From the IMG/VR virus record IMGVR_UViG_3300043544_000026, positions 1-23,507 of that record: 23,507 bases of DNA; one strand, 5' to 3'. This document shows, piece after piece, positions 1 through 23,507 of this stretch. The position numbers and the translations under genes are program-made. Source of the stretch: a virus. Position 1 is the first letter of the stretch. Every line of letters begins with the position of its first letter. The notes under the pieces are model-generated. The model saw only the letters and a list, made by a program, of their open reading frames with translations, made no database searches and was not told the DNA's origin.

Positions 1-204
1 TGTGCGTCAATTTCTCTTTTTTCGTCTGCCATAAACTCATAGTCCGATTTTTTCAAAAATATTCCGCTGTCAGGGGCATTGTCCCAGTTTAAGAATTGGT
101 AGCTGTTAATAAACCCGGCAGGGCAAATTTGTAGAAGCGCTTCATCGTAATCCGCCAGGTAGATGTTTCCGCTGCTTGCGATCTTTCCCAGCCCACCCGT
201 CCTG
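1..204. repeat. Direct terminal repeat, left copy
   Basis: Bases 1-204 equal 23304-23507 except at one position (C77 against A23380). It most likely reflects a circular or circularly permuted genome assembled past its own start. A genuine terminal repeat is less likely because it lies in the middle of one open reading frame. Confidence 0.97.
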
Positions 205-13265: not shown

Positions 13266-13330
13266 TGGTTGGCTCCCTGTATCTTAACTGCTTTTTGTCC
13301 TGTAAATTTTTCCCAGCGCCAGATTATCAG
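13262..13330 (-). pseudogene. Out-of-frame remnant of the methyltransferase C-terminus
   Basis: In the frame one base back from the methyltransferase reading frame, the bases just before the small-terminase start read LIIWRWEKFTGQKAVKIQGA and end at TGA 13264-13262. The phrase RWEKFTGQKAV looks like the extreme C-terminus of ParB-methyltransferases (family knowledge from memory). It implies a deletion that removed motif I and shifted the frame, leaving this end in place. Confidence 0.6.
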
Positions 13331-14234
13331 CTGGCAATTCTTTTGTCTTTTTGCCTGTAATTATCTGCTCATGGTGTCTGGAATAGTCAGCCCATCCTAT
13401 GACCGGCGCATTTTTGATCCAGACTATGGTGGTTGAAACCTTAAAGCCGACCTTTTTCAGGGTATCCATAAAGACTCCAAGCGATGACCAGCCGCTGCAG
13501 ATGTAAAATGCGGCCCCTGGGCGTAGTGCTTTCCATACGTTTCGCATCCAGTTTTCTGTAAATTCCTTAAAGTCGTCCTGTGGCAAGTCGTCATTAGAGA
13601 CCTTACCCAGTACGCTTTCGTATCCAACTCCGTATGGTGGATCTGTGAAGAGCAGGTCTGCGTGGTTTCCTTCCATCAAGGCTTCGTATGTTTCACATCG
13701 TGTAGCGTCCCCGCATATTAGCCTATGTCTACCCAGTGCGTACATGTCCCCGGGTTTGACTTTCACGTCCTCTGTGGTTGGTATGGGTTCTTTTTCTAAC
13801 TTGTATGTGTCCCCTTTTAAAAATGCCTCATCGGTGATTATGTTTTCCAATTCAATGGTATCAAAGCCTGCCAGTTCGATTTCCGGTGTGTCGAGGTCGA
13901 TGATAAACTCACGTACCAGGTCGGGGTCGAATTGACCATGAATTTTATTGAGAGCAAGGTTAAGTGCCTTTTCCTTGTTTTTGGGGAGATCCACAATAAC
14001 AACCGGTACCTTTTCAACTCCAAGTTCTTTAATCGCTTGTAGTCGCATATTTCCGCCGATCACTTCACCTTGCTTGTTAATGACCAGTGGGTCCACAATT
14101 CCGAATTCCCGGATCGAGTTAAGAAGTTGCGCATAGGTTTTACCATCCATCTTTCTGGGATTGCCAGGGTATGGCCTAAGTCTTTCCACATCCCAGATTT
14201 CCACTTTAAAGAAATCATTAATTGTGTCCGGCAT
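13284..14234 (-). CDS. ParB-like nuclease / DNA methyltransferase fusion, C-terminally truncated
   Basis: The product has 316 residues. GGGGGG four bases before the ATG is a strong ribosome site. Residues 10-100 are a ParB/Srx-type domain with IGGNMRLQAIKELG (59-72, the G-G-x-x-R loop). Residues 165-295 are a methyltransferase half with RLICGDATRCETYEALM, the catalytic FTDPPYGVGY (DPPY at 198-201), an NDD segment, LRPGAAFYIC and HHEQIITGKK. The usual remainder, including the SAM-binding D-P-F-x-G-S-G-T motif, is absent and the frame ends in an unrelated-looking tail. Motif order and length indicate a missing stretch. Catalysis is therefore unlikely unless a partner supplies it; the ParB part could still act. 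Intact relatives modify phage DNA against restriction. Confidence 0.85.
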   Translation of the reverse strand: MPDTINDFFKVEIWDVERLRPYPGNPRKMDGKTYAQLLNSIREFGIVDPLVINKQGEVIGGNMRLQAIKELGVEKVPVVIVDLPKNKEKALNLALNKIHGQFDPDLVREFIIDLDTPEIELAGFDTIELENIITDEAFLKGDTYKLEKEPIPTTEDVKVKPGDMYALGRHRLICGDATRCETYEALMEGNHADLLFTDPPYGVGYESVLGKVSNDDLPQDDFKEFTENWMRNVWKALRPGAAFYICSGWSSLGVFMDTLKKVGFKVSTTIVWIKNAPVIGWADYSRHHEQIITGKKTKELPADNLALGKIYRTKSS

Positions 14235-14544: not shown

Positions 14545-14893
14545 TTTGTCTCCATTTTCTATCCATTTTGTTAATTTCCGCTGATATCCAGGCAGCAAGC
14601 GTAAGCTTCTTAAATCTACGATCCAACTCTGAAACAATGCAAGGGATGGGTGTCCAGGTCTTTGTCATGCCCTGGTGTACCCTGGAGATCCTTTCTATTG
14701 TCCTGTAGTCACTGGAGAGTTCCACAAGGATTTCTAATGCATCCTGTGGGTCGACGTTTCTGGGATCGAGGCCCCTCTTTTTTGCACGGTATCTCATGAT
14801 ACTCCGGATGGTTTCGTCGGGCCCTTGTGTCCGTGGCTTAGTGAAGTCGAAGTAGTACCCCTTTTCCTCGTGCCATTTTATAAAGTATATCAT
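14504..14893 (-). CDS. Conserved-looking protein of unknown function
   Basis: The product has 129 residues, and its ATG overlaps the initiator-like gene stop as ATGA. I do not recognise the family. It begins with an aromatic strand section (MIYFIKWHEEKGYYFDFTKP), followed by helices rich in Arg and Asp (ETIRSIMRYRAKKRGLDPRN). A further helical part follows (LTLAAWISAEINKMDRKWRQ), then a very charged C-terminus that overlaps the resolvase start by 41 nt. Position between replication and recombination genes and tight coupling suggest an accessory role in DNA metabolism; no catalytic motif supports anything more specific. Confidence 0.7.
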   Translation of the reverse strand: MIYFIKWHEEKGYYFDFTKPRTQGPDETIRSIMRYRAKKRGLDPRNVDPQDALEILVELSSDYRTIERISRVHQGMTKTWTPIPCIVSELDRRFKKLTLAAWISAEINKMDRKWRQNEWKEEPQKGKNR

Positions 14894-15945
14894 ACCCCGG
14901 CAGTCTCCCTTTTAATAGACTCTTTGGCTTTTAAAATTTTCTCTACGAGCGTCTCCAGGTCTTGCATAGATATGTCTGAGAAGCGCCAGTAAAAGTACCA
15001 TTCAAAGGTCAATTTCCGAATCCACCGCTCCGGGACGTTGTCGACACAGAATTTAGCCCAGGCCTTTGGTGTTTCAAACCGCCCGTAGTCGACTTTAGGG
15101 GCTTTTTCGTATGTCATGATGAGGTCATATTTTCTTATCAATGTGTCCCAGTCAAAGCCGTTTAAAAAGCTGAAAACGGGGCGCAGTTCTATGCACTTTC
15201 TGAAGTATGCCTTGAGATTTTCCCAGTCGCCAGCCATGTCTCGTAATTTGAAAATCTGCGTTCGATCGTATTTTGTGAGGTTTTTCCGGGGCCATCCGAG
15301 TTCCTTGAGCAAATCCACGACGTCCGGCGGTATGGCCTCGTAAAACTCGCCTAACCCTAACCTTACCATCTCACCGAGCCTCTTATTTACGTTAAGGTGC
15401 ATTTCTGTGAGTAAAAGTTCGTTTTTGATGCTTTCGATGTCTATATTATTCTCTTTCTTTATATCTTCTGTTTTTATATCTCTGTTTTTATAGAGTCCGT
15501 GGGTTTCATTGTCACTCAAGGAATTAAGCCTTGTTTCCGGCGTCGGTTTTTCCGACGTCGGATTTTCCGTTGCCGGTTTTTCCGGCGACGGATTTTCCGT
15601 TGCCGGATTTTCCACCTCAATCTTTTTAAGTTCCGCTTGCACCAAATCAGACACGGGATCGTTAGGGTTAGACTTTAGGATATAGAGATATCCTCTAAAC
15701 CTATGCTTTTGGTCGTAGATCTGAATTCTGGCGAGGTATCCGGCTTTTATAAGTTCGTTTAGTGTCTTTTTAATGACCTCTGGGCTTTCTGGTCCCTCAA
15801 ATCGCTCTGTCGAGAAGGCCCAGCCCTGTGGCTTAGCCTGTAAGTATGCATACAAGCCTTTAGCCCGTAGGCTGAGCTTTGTGTCATATAGGACTGAATT
15901 TGGAATTACACCGTACTTCTCTTTAATCACCAACCTTTCAATCAT
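14890..15945 (-). CDS. Replication initiator / replisome organiser-like protein
   Basis: The product has 351 residues, with AGGA just ahead of the ATG. Residues 1-95 form a winged helix of the HTH_36 type common in phage replisome organisers (YGVIPNSVLYDTKLSLRAKG, LYAYLQAKPQGWAFSTERFE, then KKTLNELIKAGYLARIQIYD). Residues about 112-138 are a low-complexity linker of repeating E-[NK]-P-x-x pentads, encoded by five near-identical 15-bp DNA units. After an AT-rich stretch the C-terminal 180 residues are helical with aromatic patches (FTFEWYFYWRFSDISM-like region near 320). No helicase, primase or polymerase gene is seen, so this protein probably marks the origin and loads host replication proteins. 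The DnaD-like or lambda O-like role is inferred from architecture. Confidence 0.75.
   Translation of the reverse strand: MIERLVIKEKYGVIPNSVLYDTKLSLRAKGLYAYLQAKPQGWAFSTERFEGPESPEVIKKTLNELIKAGYLARIQIYDQKHRFRGYLYILKSNPNDPVSDLVQAELKKIEVENPATENPSPEKPATENPTSEKPTPETRLNSLSDNETHGLYKNRDIKTEDIKKENNIDIESIKNELLLTEMHLNVNKRLGEMVRLGLGEFYEAIPPDVVDLLKELGWPRKNLTKYDRTQIFKLRDMAGDWENLKAYFRKCIELRPVFSFLNGFDWDTLIRKYDLIMTYEKAPKVDYGRFETPKAWAKFCVDNVPERWIRKLTFEWYFYWRFSDISMQDLETLVEKILKAKESIKRETAGV
15441..15494. other. AT-rich stretch next to the iterons, possible DNA-unwinding element
   Basis: Of these 54 bases, 43 are A or T (11 are G or C), clearly above the surrounding gene. It has short repeats of TATATC/TTTTTATA type. 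Together with the iterons at 15538-15612 it resembles the arrangement of an origin inside an initiator gene. This is inference. Confidence 0.45.
15538..15612. repeat. Five tandem 15-bp iteron-like repeats inside the initiator gene
   Basis: Units at 15538-15552, 15553-15567, 15568-15582, 15583-15597 and 15598-15612 follow the pattern CGnnGnCGGwTTTTC. Units 3 and 5 differ by one base. One junction contains the perfect palindrome CCGACGTCGG (15552-15561). An AT-rich stretch lies 43 bp away at 15441-15494. Confidence 0.85.
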
Positions 15946-16273
15946 TGCTTCCTGCCTTGTATTTTTTCTTCATTAAAAGTTTGCTAACTGCTTCCGGGAT
16001 AATGCGGTAGAAAACTTGCCGGGGATTGTCGTTGAATTTTCCACGTTTTTCCTCGAGTATTCCCAGCTTACTTAGGTTCCGACGTATTGTTCTGAATTCG
16101 TCCTTTGAAAGGCCGAGTTCCTCTATTTGTTCCCGGGTCAAAATTACCCATCCTGTATCCGATTGTATTTGCCAGGTGAGAAGAAGGGCCACAATTACTG
16201 CTTCCTTAACGCCCCCTATTAGGCTTCCGAGCTGTGGCCAGTATGTGATAGGCTTAGAGAGGTCCGGTTTCAT
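15938..16273 (-). CDS. Winged-helix DNA-binding protein
   Basis: The product has 111 residues. Its ATG overlaps the ribbon-helix-helix gene stop (ATGA), and its end overlaps the initiator-like gene by 8 nt. Residues 20-85 look like a winged helix: VKEAVIVALLLTWQIQSDTG, then LTREQIEELGLSKDEFRTIR as the recognition region, then a wing in LGILEEKRGKFNDNPRQVFY. A basic end (LLMKKKYKAGSND) follows. Similar small proteins precede replisome organisers in other phages and may act with them or as regulators. Which of these applies cannot be told here. Confidence 0.72.
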   Translation of the reverse strand: MKPDLSKPITYWPQLGSLIGGVKEAVIVALLLTWQIQSDTGWVILTREQIEELGLSKDEFRTIRRNLSKLGILEEKRGKFNDNPRQVFYRIIPEAVSKLLMKKKYKAGSND

Positions 16274-16719: not shown

Positions 16720-16751
16720 AGGGCCGGGGTTTTAAGGATAACCCCGGCCCT
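16720..16751 (-). terminator. Strong hairpin, intrinsic terminator or attenuator
   Basis: AGGGCCGGGGTT (16720-16731) pairs perfectly with AACCCCGGCCCT (16740-16751) around an 8-nt loop. In the minus-strand transcript the stem is followed by ATTTTAT. The T tract is short, so it may only partly stop transcription leaving the nuclease and ERF genes, setting the level of the rest of the operon. Confidence 0.7.
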
Positions 16752-16758
16752 GTATCTC

Positions 16759-17829
16759 TTAAAATGGTAAATTTTCGTCACCGTTTGTCGCTGTCGCACT
16801 GTCGCCTTTTTCATTTTTAGAAGTATACGTTTCGTATGTCGTTTCGTCAAGTTCTGTTTTAAGTAGCCGTACTGCAAGTCGTAACTGCTCGAGTGTTAGG
16901 GCTTTTGAGCTGGCAACACCGAATTTCTCAAGTAAAAAGGCATGCCAGATATCTTCACGTTCTTTGGTGTGTTTGGTTGGATATTTCTTTTTTAGAGCCT
17001 CTGCTACTTCGATCCGGAGCTTAAGTCTTTCTACGGTCTCTTTTTCGTCCGTAGTGACCTCTTTGCTTTGTACGGGCATGGGGTTTTGTGGCTTGTCCTC
17101 TATGATGATTTTTTCGTTCTGTATTGTCACGTCCGGGTTTCCATCGGTATCTTCTTCTGATGGAATTCCGAGCAGAAGGCTTAATGCGTATCTCTTGCCG
17201 TATGTTATGACGGCTCCGAAGCTCTGCACTATGTTCATTCCACTGGCATCCGGAATAAGTGGCATTGTTACTTCACATGTCTCTGTGTGACCGTCTTTGT
17301 GGTATAACTCGCATCTTATCATTGCCTTATTGTCGCCTATGTTTGTTTTGAAGCTAAACGAGAATCCATGTTTGACGAGGATGGGCCGTATAGTCTCGAC
17401 CACGTCATCGAAGGTAGCGTAGCGGTATCTAATACTGCCATCCTTGTTTTTAACGATTCTCTTCTTTGGTACAGGCTTTAACTCAGCTTGTACTTGTCTC
17501 AATGCTTCGTAGAATTGGCGCCTTGCATGTTCGTTTACGATGCGTTCTCTTAAGGCGAATAACTCCTTAAGCGCTTCAACTCCGGCTCCTGAGATCCTTT
17601 CTGCCATCCGGAGTATCTGTTCGTCTATTGGTTCTGGTTTTAGAATTGGTTGTACTGGTTCAGGCATTGCCACCGTTAGTTCTTTCCCTTTTTTCTTTTT
17701 TGTTTCTGGTGCCGGTTGAGGCTCTGTGGCCTCAACTTCATTTATTGCCTCTGTAGTCCCTTGTGGGACTGCCATTCCCTGGAGATCCAGGGTGTTTTCT
17801 GTTTGCTTTTTTTCATTCTGTTGATTCAT
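16759..17829 (-). CDS. erf: ERF-family single-strand annealing protein
   Basis: The product has 356 residues. GGAGG six bases before the ATG gives the start, 17 nt inside the nuclease gene. Residues 1-75 are a disordered Pro/Glu/Lys linker. Residues about 90-225 are the ERF annealase core: VNEHARRQFYEALRQVQAEL, RYRYATFDDVVETIRPILVK, HGFSFSFKTN, VQSFGAVITYGKRYALSLLL, GIPSEEDTDG. The C-terminal third is helical, then acidic, and ends in GDENLPF. That end resembles the tip of bacterial SSB, which docks host repair and replication enzymes. With the adjacent exonuclease-like gene it would promote annealing recombination, concatemer formation and end repair. P22 Erf is the reference for the family. 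Confidence 0.9.
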   Translation of the reverse strand: MNQQNEKKQTENTLDLQGMAVPQGTTEAINEVEATEPQPAPETKKKKGKELTVAMPEPVQPILKPEPIDEQILRMAERISGAGVEALKELFALRERIVNEHARRQFYEALRQVQAELKPVPKKRIVKNKDGSIRYRYATFDDVVETIRPILVKHGFSFSFKTNIGDNKAMIRCELYHKDGHTETCEVTMPLIPDASGMNIVQSFGAVITYGKRYALSLLLGIPSEEDTDGNPDVTIQNEKIIIEDKPQNPMPVQSKEVTTDEKETVERLKLRIEVAEALKKKYPTKHTKEREDIWHAFLLEKFGVASSKALTLEQLRLAVRLLKTELDETTYETYTSKNEKGDSATATNGDENLPF

Positions 17830-18805
17830 GGCTTACCTCCTTCTTTTTACGAGTAAACCTTTTTTGGATTGAAACTGAGGCCATATTGCTTACCTCTGCG
17901 TCTACCTTCCGGGCGTACTCTTTAAAGATCCTCGTGTCCACCCGGAAGATGCTTTTATTCCCTTTGGCTTTAGGAATTTGAAGCTCGAATGGATTTATCC
18001 CTTTGCTGGCAAGGTATTTAAATAATTCACTGGGGTTAACCTCGAGTTCTTCGTAGAATTCGTAGTCCCAGATCACATCGCCGGTGCTAACTTCTGCTCC
18101 GGCTTCTGTGAAAGCACGGGCTATTTCCTTAAGATCTGCGATTTCCGTTTCTAAAGCCAATAATCTTCTTGCGAGGCTTTGTGGGTCCCGGGTGAAAAGT
18201 TCCATATCACTGTTAACCTGTAACGCCGGGCAGCTTTTTCTGTACTGGCAATATAGACATCCGCTGCCAGGGTTAGGGATGTCGAGTGGAAATTCTGCCA
18301 TTTCTTTCTCTATCTGCTTTATGGTCGTCAGCAGCCTTGCCCCGTATCTAAGGTATTCGTCCGGTGTATAGCATCTTTGTGTGTAAAAAGTAGGGGTAAT
18401 CGAGACAAACTCTACAACCGGGAGTTCTGCATTTTGTTCTGAGAATAAAAAGCTATAAACTCCGAGTTGTTCCTTTGGATCTGTGGGATAGTTCTTAAAT
18501 TCTGCGATTGCTACGTGTCCCTCGTCAATCCGGGCGATTGCGTCTACGTATCCCACGATCTGCGTGCCCTCAACCTCTGCCTCAAGCTTAACTTCGTATT
18601 GCCATTCTAATTGTAGTAGGTCGTCAGGAATGCCCAGATCGTTTGGCTCTATTCCCTTAAGGATGTTTTGCGCCCGGATGTGGAAATCACGGCCCTCAAT
18701 AAAGGAGACCGGTTCCGGGTTTTCAGGTGCGGCTTTTTCAATGTACCGCTTTAGGAAGAGCCGCTTGCATGTTGTGTATGTTTTTATTTTTGTGATGCTC
18801 CACAT
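17813..18805 (-). CDS. Cas4/RecB-like PD-(D/E)XK exonuclease with Fe-S cysteines
   Basis: I chose the ATG at 18803-18805 (MWSITKIKTYTTC), with AGGAGG six bases upstream; a start further out would lie within the promoter. The product has 330 residues. The nuclease core has His42, Asp88 in VGYVDAIA, Glu102-x-Lys104 in IAEFKN and Gln113-x3-Tyr117 in QLGVYSF. Cys13 plus Cys183, Cys186 and Cys192 (CLYCQYRKSC) match the four-cysteine Fe-S arrangement of Cas4 and AddB. The C-terminal 130 residues are mostly helical with no known motif. It is first in the early operon and overlaps the ERF gene, so it likely resects ends to feed the annealing protein. No CRISPR array or other cas gene is present. Confidence 0.88.
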   Translation of the reverse strand: MWSITKIKTYTTCKRLFLKRYIEKAAPENPEPVSFIEGRDFHIRAQNILKGIEPNDLGIPDDLLQLEWQYEVKLEAEVEGTQIVGYVDAIARIDEGHVAIAEFKNYPTDPKEQLGVYSFLFSEQNAELPVVEFVSITPTFYTQRCYTPDEYLRYGARLLTTIKQIEKEMAEFPLDIPNPGSGCLYCQYRKSCPALQVNSDMELFTRDPQSLARRLLALETEIADLKEIARAFTEAGAEVSTGDVIWDYEFYEELEVNPSELFKYLASKGINPFELQIPKAKGNKSIFRVDTRIFKEYARKVDAEVSNMASVSIQKRFTRKKKEVSHESTE

Positions 18806-18833
18806 TTCAACCTCCTTTTTTGTGTGTATTATA

Positions 18834-18862
18834 AGCATACTCTACCCCATCCGTTTTGTCAA
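18834..18862 (-). promoter_or_regulatory. Leftward early promoter
   Basis: On the minus strand TTGACA (18862-18857), a 17-bp spacer and TATGCT (18839-18834) precede the nuclease gene. A TATAAT is also present six bases further on, at a poorer 23-bp spacing. The box flanks match those of the divergent promoter. Confidence 0.78.
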
Positions 18863-21463: not shown

Positions 21464-23507
21464 TCACTGTATAATAAAGCCCACCGCTGGCACTGGCTGT
21501 CCAGTCTCTGCCGTATATCCGCTTGACGGCGCTTGTGCCGGCAATGAACTATCGCTCGTATAATAGTCTGTTACGCTCGCAGTTCCAAGTGTTGGCGTTC
21601 GCATGGCCATGCAAGCTCCGACAGGTATCGCACTCACCGACACCGCCGCACTGCTACGCAACGCCATCCAGTATAAGCCAGGGTTTAGCACTATGTTAAA
21701 ACTTGCAGTTTTGATTCCGCTCTCTGTGGAATAGGAGAGGTTTGCACTTTGCAAAAGCACGTTTGGATACCCTTGTTCTGTGCTGTTATAGACGCCAATG
21801 CTCACAGTAGCCGTTGCACTTGCCGTTATATTGATTGCCACCGATTGAATTGTTGTTTTCCGTGTAACCACAAAAGGCCACCAATAGGTGCGTGAGCCTC
21901 CAATTATTGTTCTGGTCGTGAGTGTTGTGGCATTCAAAAGCCCAGCAATCCAATAGCTCGTATCGCCTGGCACTGCTGGAGTCGGGCTTATAAATTGATC
22001 CGGCGAGACAAGTTCTAAACCGGTGCCGTCATTATTCACCTTTACAATCTTGCCGCTGTGTCCGGAAAGGCTGCCGGGCCCATCAAGTAGCTCTGAAAAT
22101 TTGAAACCTTCGATGATGTTATGTTTTGAAATGCCGCTTGTGATTGCTACGGCCCTGATTACGAGCGGATATTCATCAAAGTTTCCTTCAAAAACAAGCT
22201 CCAACGTGTAATAGCAAACCACCGCTCCATCGTAAATTAGCGGTACCTCAATCGGTTTAATAAACGTAGTGTTCAAAAATGCATAGGAGCCAAGGTCGTA
22301 TTCTACCACCCCGAGGCAGAAGTCTTCCTCACTGCATAGGATTACCCTTGCTGATATTTTTATGCTCTGCCCTGTTGAAAACCCGGCGACTTTTATTACC
22401 TTTTTTGCATTTCTGGTTTCACTGTATGGTCCATTAGTGCGGATGAATAGCTTTTGAGCCGTTTTTATGGATGCAGTTGTTCCGCTGTCCGCCACGGCTA
22501 CCCAGCCTCTGCCGAGGTAGTTCCACTGCAGGCTAAAATTGTTAAGCACCCAGCCATAGTCCTCTTGGAAGAAAAACGGGTTTATATTGTCTATGACTCC
22601 CTCTGTTGCTATGACGTCTATCTCTGTCGTTGTAGTTTGTTTTGGCTGTGTAACGTTTTCCATTTCTGCCGTTATCTGTACTTGCTTTGTGTGGTACATC
22701 CCTCTAAAAGTGTAGACAAAGAGGTATTGTGGCTTTAGAGTCGTCACGTTTATGGTTGTATAAAGCACGCCGGAAGCCCTTACTGCCGCCCCCGTATGGG
22801 ATACGAGCTGGCCGGTATCTGCTTCAAATACCTTTATGTCGCAGTAGGTCGGGGTTTCGTATCCTAATGACCGGTATGAAAGCTTCGCACGTATCACGAA
22901 TCCGATGGGTGTCCTTTGCCACGAAGCGGCAAGATTGCAATCTATAACGATCCAGCTAATCTGATCCTGGTTGCCTGGCCATTCCACATCTACGTCCGAT
23001 TGGTAAACCACAATCTGGTATTCAAACTTGCCATCCGTGTTAAAAGTGTAAGAAGTGAGGACCCCTGTTTCTATGTTTCCTTCCGGGTTCTCAAATTGTA
23101 TTTTCATTCCCAGTGCAGACGTGATGTCACTGTAACTCCGGACGGTGTAAGTTTTAAGCCGTGCCCAGCTCCGCCTCTTTGCTAAGAGCGTCCTGGCCAT
23201 CTCGCCCGTCACCGGAAGACTAACTATCTCATCGGACCCACTCCACCAAGCCGTTGTTTCCGGTATTGTCTCGCCGTCTATTGTCTGGATGATGTACCTC
23301 TTGTGTGCGTCAATTTCTCTTTTTTCGTCTGCCATAAACTCATAGTCCGATTTTTTCAAAAATATTCCGCTGTCAGGGGAATTGTCCCAGTTTAAGAATT
23401 GGTAGCTGTTAATAAACCCGGCAGGGCAAATTTGTAGAAGCGCTTCATCGTAATCCGCCAGGTAGATGTTTCCGCTGCTTGCGATCTTTCCCAGCCCACC
23501 CGTCCTG
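21464..23507 (-). CDS. Tail-tip / receptor-binding protein, C-terminal part (gene begins at 1724 on the circle)
   Basis: The frame is open from the right edge to TGA 21466-21464, and the shared terminal repeat places it in register with the frame starting at 1724. The ordinary-looking TTG start at 23359 is internal. The full protein has 1187 residues. Residues about 977-1010 contain FSELLDGPGSLSGHSGKIVK then VNNDGTGLEL, a hinge motif common in phage fibres. The last 175 residues (DTSYWIAGLLNATTLTTRTI, then VSIGVYNSTEQGYPNVLLQS, NPGLYWMALRSS) match a recurring beta-sandwich head found at the tips of fibres and receptor-binding proteins. The C-terminus is therefore the likely host-recognition part. 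Confidence 0.85.
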   Translation of the reverse strand, partial: RTGGLGKIASSGNIYLADYDEALLQICPAGFINSYQFLNWDNSPDSGIFLKKSDYEFMADEKREIDAHKRYIIQTIDGETIPETTAWWSGSDEIVSLPVTGEMARTLLAKRRSWARLKTYTVRSYSDITSALGMKIQFENPEGNIETGVLTSYTFNTDGKFEYQIVVYQSDVDVEWPGNQDQISWIVIDCNLAASWQRTPIGFVIRAKLSYRSLGYETPTYCDIKVFEADTGQLVSHTGAAVRASGVLYTTINVTTLKPQYLFVYTFRGMYHTKQVQITAEMENVTQPKQTTTTEIDVIATEGVIDNINPFFFQEDYGWVLNNFSLQWNYLGRGWVAVADSGTTASIKTAQKLFIRTNGPYSETRNAKKVIKVAGFSTGQSIKISARVILCSEEDFCLGVVEYDLGSYAFLNTTFIKPIEVPLIYDGAVVCYYTLELVFEGNFDEYPLVIRAVAITSGISKHNIIEGFKFSELLDGPGSLSGHSGKIVKVNNDGTGLELVSPDQFISPTPAVPGDTSYWIAGLLNATTLTTRTIIGGSRTYWWPFVVTRKTTIQSVAINITASATATVSIGVYNSTEQGYPNVLLQSANLSYSTESGIKTASFNIVLNPGLYWMALRSSAAVSVSAIPVGACMAMRTPTLGTASVTDYYTSDSSLPAQAPSSGYTAETGQPVPAVGFIIQ
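23304..23507. repeat. Direct terminal repeat, right copy
   Basis: This is the second copy of the 204-bp terminal sequence. It differs at one base, A23380, which makes Ser instead of Ala in the tail-tip protein. Joining the two copies gives a unique length of 23,303 bp. Confidence 0.97.

Follow-up and report, generated by a model that had tools for sequence, protein, structure and literature searches.

The window, a stretch of viral DNA 23,507 nucleotides long, carries a 204-bp direct repeat at its two ends and is therefore probably a whole genome, that of a small tailed phage of about 23.3 kb. On its minus strand lies a gene whose product is, judged from sequence, an ERF annealing protein with predicted annealing activity (Table 1). 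The match to the PF04404 profile covers residues 106-249 and scores 95.1 bits against a cut-off of 25, that to PHROG 155 has an E value of 2e-36, and the single-stranded DNA-binding protein (SSB) profile PF00436 is unmatched by this protein. A PD-(D/E)XK nuclease gene adjoins upstream, overlapping the start of the ERF gene by 17 bp, and its product is likely the exonuclease partner of ERF. A strong intrinsic terminator sits immediately 3′ of the ERF stop codon, so that ERF closes a nuclease-ERF unit and is not followed by an ssb gene. Two replication-initiation/O-like proteins are encoded downstream and their C-termini are without the tip described below.

The original prediction stated that neither an SSB nor a helicase gene was found in this phage, and both statements stand over the genes covered. 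A profile search of the genome gave no match to PF00436, ten further ORFs scanned gave no SSB-like PHROG, and no helicase was found among the genes scanned with Pfam and PHROG, which are a subset of all genes in the window. We also note that positions 13284-14234 encode a DNA methyltransferase domain fused to a ParB N-terminal domain, that the composition of the window gives a rough estimate of host growth near 57 °C, and that the best match of the terminase is to a Thermoanaerobacterium phage (46%).

Table 1. Positions of the features discussed, in the window and at other ERF loci
Feature	Position	Strand	Basis or remarks
ERF annealing protein gene, whole	16759..17829	-	356 aa; PF04404, PHROG 155
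ERF/Rad52-like annealing core, residues 68-232	17134..17628	-	PF04404; structure match
Helical C-terminal domain, residues 260-330	16840..17052	-	AlphaFold2 pLDDT about 75-85
Predicted disordered T/S/N-rich tail, residues 331-356	16762..16839	-	AlphaFold2 pLDDT <50
SSB-like C-terminal tip, codons for DENLPF	16762..16779	-	direct reading, translation
ERF stop codon TAA	16759-16761	-	direct reading
Intrinsic terminator	16720..16751	-	12-pair stem and T-rich tail, fold z -3.4
PD-(D/E)XK nuclease	17813..18838	-	PF12705 48.9 bits, PHROG exonuclease
Two replication-initiation/O-like proteins, downstream of ERF	14890..16273	-	PHROGs 428, 270, 9773
Terminal direct repeat, 204 bp	1..204 and 23304-23507	.	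one mismatch between copies
Replication initiator/DnaD-like loader with tip	L169:5771-6529		SIENLPF
Replication initiator/DnaD-like loader with tip	L349:3650-4522		NDDDLPF
Replication initiator/DnaD-like loader with tip	L093:3974-4714		DDLGLPF
Replication initiator/DnaD-like loader with tip	L416:6099-6929		SEDIVLPF

The C-terminal tip and the predicted structure of ERF

Direct reading and translation give ...SATATNGDENLPF-stop as the C-terminus of ERF. The translated tail, ...YTSKNEKGDSATATNGDENLPF*, has a free C-terminus, and the end of the protein, ...KGDSATATNGDENLPF, is followed by a TAA stop codon. That ERF finishes with an SSB-like tip, DENLPF, as had been proposed, is thus confirmed by the codons themselves and by the translation. 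The ending fits the terminal pattern [DE]x(0-3)[ILVM]PF, and among the gene calls of the window only ERF has a C-terminus of this kind. The segment leading to the tip had been described as an acidic tail rich in Thr, Ser and Asn. The richness in these residues is evident, as they occupy 10/26 of the last positions, but the tail is only mildly acidic because five acidic residues are accompanied by two basic ones.

An AlphaFold2 monomer model of the window ERF was built with 35 ERFs. The core, residues 68-232, mostly displays pLDDT values above 90, and the modelled core superposes on the cryo-EM structure of the ERF Gp77 (PDB code 9y6u) with a Z score of 11.6 and more weakly on RAD52 (Z about 8), a Rad52-like fold in the model. 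The helical domain that follows overlaps a weak, sub-cutoff match to a GemA profile, over residues 292-345. Past residue 340 the model is without helix or strand, and from the low pLDDT over residues 331-356 the tip is predicted to lie on a flexible tail, an arrangement shared with SSB. The assignment of the tip to a disordered, solvent-accessible tail is a prediction only.

Distribution of the tip among ERFs and neighbouring genes

A survey of 402 ERF ORFs from six locus sets provided 278 distinct C-termini. Besides the ERF of the window, those of L140 (EEELPF) and L299 (DSDIPF) carry strict tips, whilst near-tips occur in L289 (ESDYPF), L311 (DDVPW) and L052 (DKIPY). The ERF of L383 ends DDEPPF, outside the strict and near-tip patterns and similar to the end of the HK620 SSB. 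We also observe that the ERFs at L299:6001-6789 and L383:4001-4717 possess an extra C-terminal region ahead of the tip (DSDIPF) or near-tip-like ending (DDEPPF); the extra domain of L299 was examined for an OB fold and the model was of poor quality.

How often would such endings arise by chance? Using the window's own composition, the pattern is expected at one C-terminus with a probability of 1.7e-4 per protein, in a model that treats residues as independent and was applied once the motif had already been noticed; for any of the 24 genes of the window the figure is 0.4%. In the survey the strict tip was observed in 2/278 C-termini against 0.05 expected (P about 1e-3). Strict tips and near-tips together number 5/278 against 0.16 expected, with P about 7e-7, a value that is optimistic since the near-tip pattern was broadened after the first matches had been seen. 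A chance origin for the DENLPF ending of the window ERF is unlikely.

The expectation that relatives of the window ERF would keep the tip is not supported, as only 5/278 distinct C-termini match, although the relatives found, at 45% identity or less, are too distant to make this a fair test. Nearly all ERFs sharing 25-45% identity with that of the window are without a tip, including those nearest to it (30-40% over the core), and tips are absent as well from the nearest relatives of the L140 ERF (40-54%). No relative of the window ERF above 45% identity was found, and searches of viral and genome contigs with the ERF or the terminase sequence yielded no close relative that passed. Comparison of the C-terminal 113 residues with phages gave a single, insignificant match. 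Given this lack of close relatives, selection on the tip is not demonstrable from this sample. On the sequences surveyed the tip is sporadic and patchy among ERFs and not a family trait, and it has probably been gained repeatedly, with independent origins.

The contigs of L140, L299, L289 and L311 were read whole or nearly so (40,000 of 40,310 bases for L299). Neither in them nor in the window was an SSB matching PF00436 found (0/5), and in each of these five genomes ERF is the sole tip carrier among 25-55 gene calls. In L052 a near-tip ERF and an SSB are both present. Contigs with a tip-less ERF, some of which are near-duplicates or fragments, carry an SSB in 28/46, 18/50 and 0/20 cases in three sets. 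The idea that tip-bearing ERFs are specific to SSB-less phages agrees with the counts (0/4 contigs with SSB, window excluded) but was set aside for want of significance (Fisher p 0.30). Lack of SSB is ordinary among ERF contigs, with 70/116 of the tip-less ones also without a PF00436 match, so that a link in which the tip replaces SSB is not significant. Absence of SSB therefore fails to set the tip-bearing ERFs apart.

The tip occurs elsewhere in the vicinity of ERF genes. It is present in 79/99 distinct SSB-like proteins, a hand-seeded set that takes in one family unmatched by PF00436, and in 42/3231 other distinct gene calls that are not SSB-like. A tip rate in ERFs above that of neighbouring non-SSB genes was considered and discarded (5/278 vs 42/3231, p 0.31); the neighbours are enriched in DNA proteins, and so the rate in ERFs does not exceed theirs.

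Ten tip carriers, one of them an ERF, were run against PHROGs. The carriers of L093, L169, L349 and L416 matched replication initiators or DnaD-like helicase loaders and that of L405 an alternative SSB, whilst those of L408, L007 and L300 matched no named function. L310:7370-7744 encodes a small HNH nuclease (DUF968 in Pfam) that ends NDIDTDIPF, and L309 and L312 encode similar proteins with endings alike. The PHROGs classification of the ten carriers suggests that tips are confined to proteins of DNA metabolism.

Possible functions of the tip

The SSB tip normally serves as the docking site for RecO, PriA, RecQ, RecJ, ExoI, DnaG and similar host proteins. We consider, with a probability of about one half, that the window ERF carries a functional docking peptide of the SSB type on a flexible tail and would bind host proteins through it. 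Assembled as rings or filaments along the single strands of phage DNA, ERF would in this case present the tip many times over. The host partners named above and others like them could dock there, and this would link annealing by a phage without its own SSB to repair or the restart of replication in the host. We infer the binding by the tip, the identity of the partners and the benefit to the phage, and the original prediction, in which the annealase could bring host enzymes to phage DNA, is supported in part.

Several observations favour a docking peptide. Tips of this kind are commoner on other ERFs than expected, and in all five tip-bearing genomes read the ERF is the sole carrier and no SSB matching PF00436 was found. 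The non-SSB carriers that could be identified, namely replication initiators, an HNH nuclease of the DUF968 family and an alternative SSB, are proteins of DNA metabolism, and the tail is predicted to be disordered. In addition, loose tips can work; the SSB of HK620 ends NDYPPF and these residues are needed to stimulate its recombinase Sak4 (PMC5928155). Against this, the tip is missing from almost every other ERF in the survey, also from those closest to that of the window, and ERFs bear it no more often than other non-SSB genes. The usual relation of an annealase to the tip is also the reverse, with Red-beta binding the SSB tip, mainly via its C-terminal domain (PMC7496540). A more general proposal is that in SSB-less phages the annealase takes over the role of SSB as a hub, using a portable tip gained repeatedly by ERF annealases, replication initiators and HNH nucleases, and that host repair and restart enzymes would be recruited to annealase-coated DNA. 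We regard this as doubtful.

An unselected tail that merely happens to end DENLPF would agree with the absence of tips from most ERFs, with the lack of close relatives and with the way the motif was picked by eye from many features. Against it stand the low chance figure for any gene in the genome, the excess of tips among ERFs and the identification of non-SSB carriers as DNA-metabolism proteins, and we judge it an unlikely explanation. The tip might instead dock inside the phage recombinase, on the helical C-terminal domain or in the DNA groove of ERF, either within one subunit or between neighbours, or else on the nuclease partner, and so regulate assembly or DNA binding, by analogy with SSB, whose acidic tail acts in this way on the DNA site of its own protein. 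Contact of an SSB tail with its own DNA site has been reported (PMC5928155), the nuclease gene immediately precedes that of ERF and runs into its start, and the Red-beta C-terminal domain has partly overlapping binding sites for its exonuclease and for the SSB tip (PMC7496540), indicating that the C-terminal domain of an annealase can accept such a peptide. However, the Red-beta C-terminal domain is absent among the structure matches listed for ERF, which mostly span the core, and the tail is disordered and undocked in our model, although a model of the monomer has little bearing on such docking. Docking of this internal kind appears improbable.

A further possibility concerns proteolysis, with the C-terminal LPF acting as a signal for removal of the annealase by host ClpXP. 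In some strains of Streptococcus mutans the C-terminal LPF of SsbA, or the same residues placed on GFP, suffices for ClpXP degradation (PMC5143411), and the ERFs of the window and of L140 share this ending. Recognition of LPF is strain-dependent, though, and was unseen in other bacteria tested, and the acidic residues ahead of LPF are dispensable for degradation (PMC5143411). The ERFs of L299 (IPF), L289 (YPF), L311 (VPW) and L052 (IPY) end without LPF. A degradation signal is, in our view, highly improbable.

Comparisons with known systems place the candidate docking peptide in context. Bacterial SSB, with DDDIPF in Escherichia coli, similarly displays acidic residues, an aliphatic residue, proline and phenylalanine at the C-terminus of a disordered tail on a protein that binds single-stranded DNA. 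The tip of the window differs in that it is attached to an annealase of the ERF/Rad52 type and not to an OB-fold SSB, with only Asp-Glu preceding Asn-Leu-Pro-Phe. With other ERF annealases (PF04404; Gp77, PDB code 9y6u; P22 Erf) the protein shares core fold, sequence and an adjacent nuclease gene, although most of these end without a tip and the window ERF has an extra, tip-bearing tail. Lambda Red-beta is likewise an annealase tied to an interaction with the SSB tip, but it receives the tip of host SSB (PMC7496540) whereas the window ERF bears its own. The HK620 Sak4 module also relies on an SSB-type tip, there on a separate phage SSB (PMC5928155), whilst the window ERF unites recombinase and tip in a single polypeptide. 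Keyword searches of openly available literature gave no report of an annealase carrying an SSB tip, which is weak evidence of novelty. An annealase with its own tip would reverse the relation seen in Red-beta and offer a simple route by which a phage that lacks SSB might borrow host enzymes.

SSB-like tips are also found on a group of small proteins, of approximately 80-105 residues, encoded near ERF genes (L408:1538-1789, L369, L391, L401, L406, L424, L426 and L427). The L408 protein, the only member scanned, has no PHROG or Pfam match. The proteins have a stretch resembling RYQRIGSII in common and are possibly unrecognised single-stranded DNA-binding proteins.
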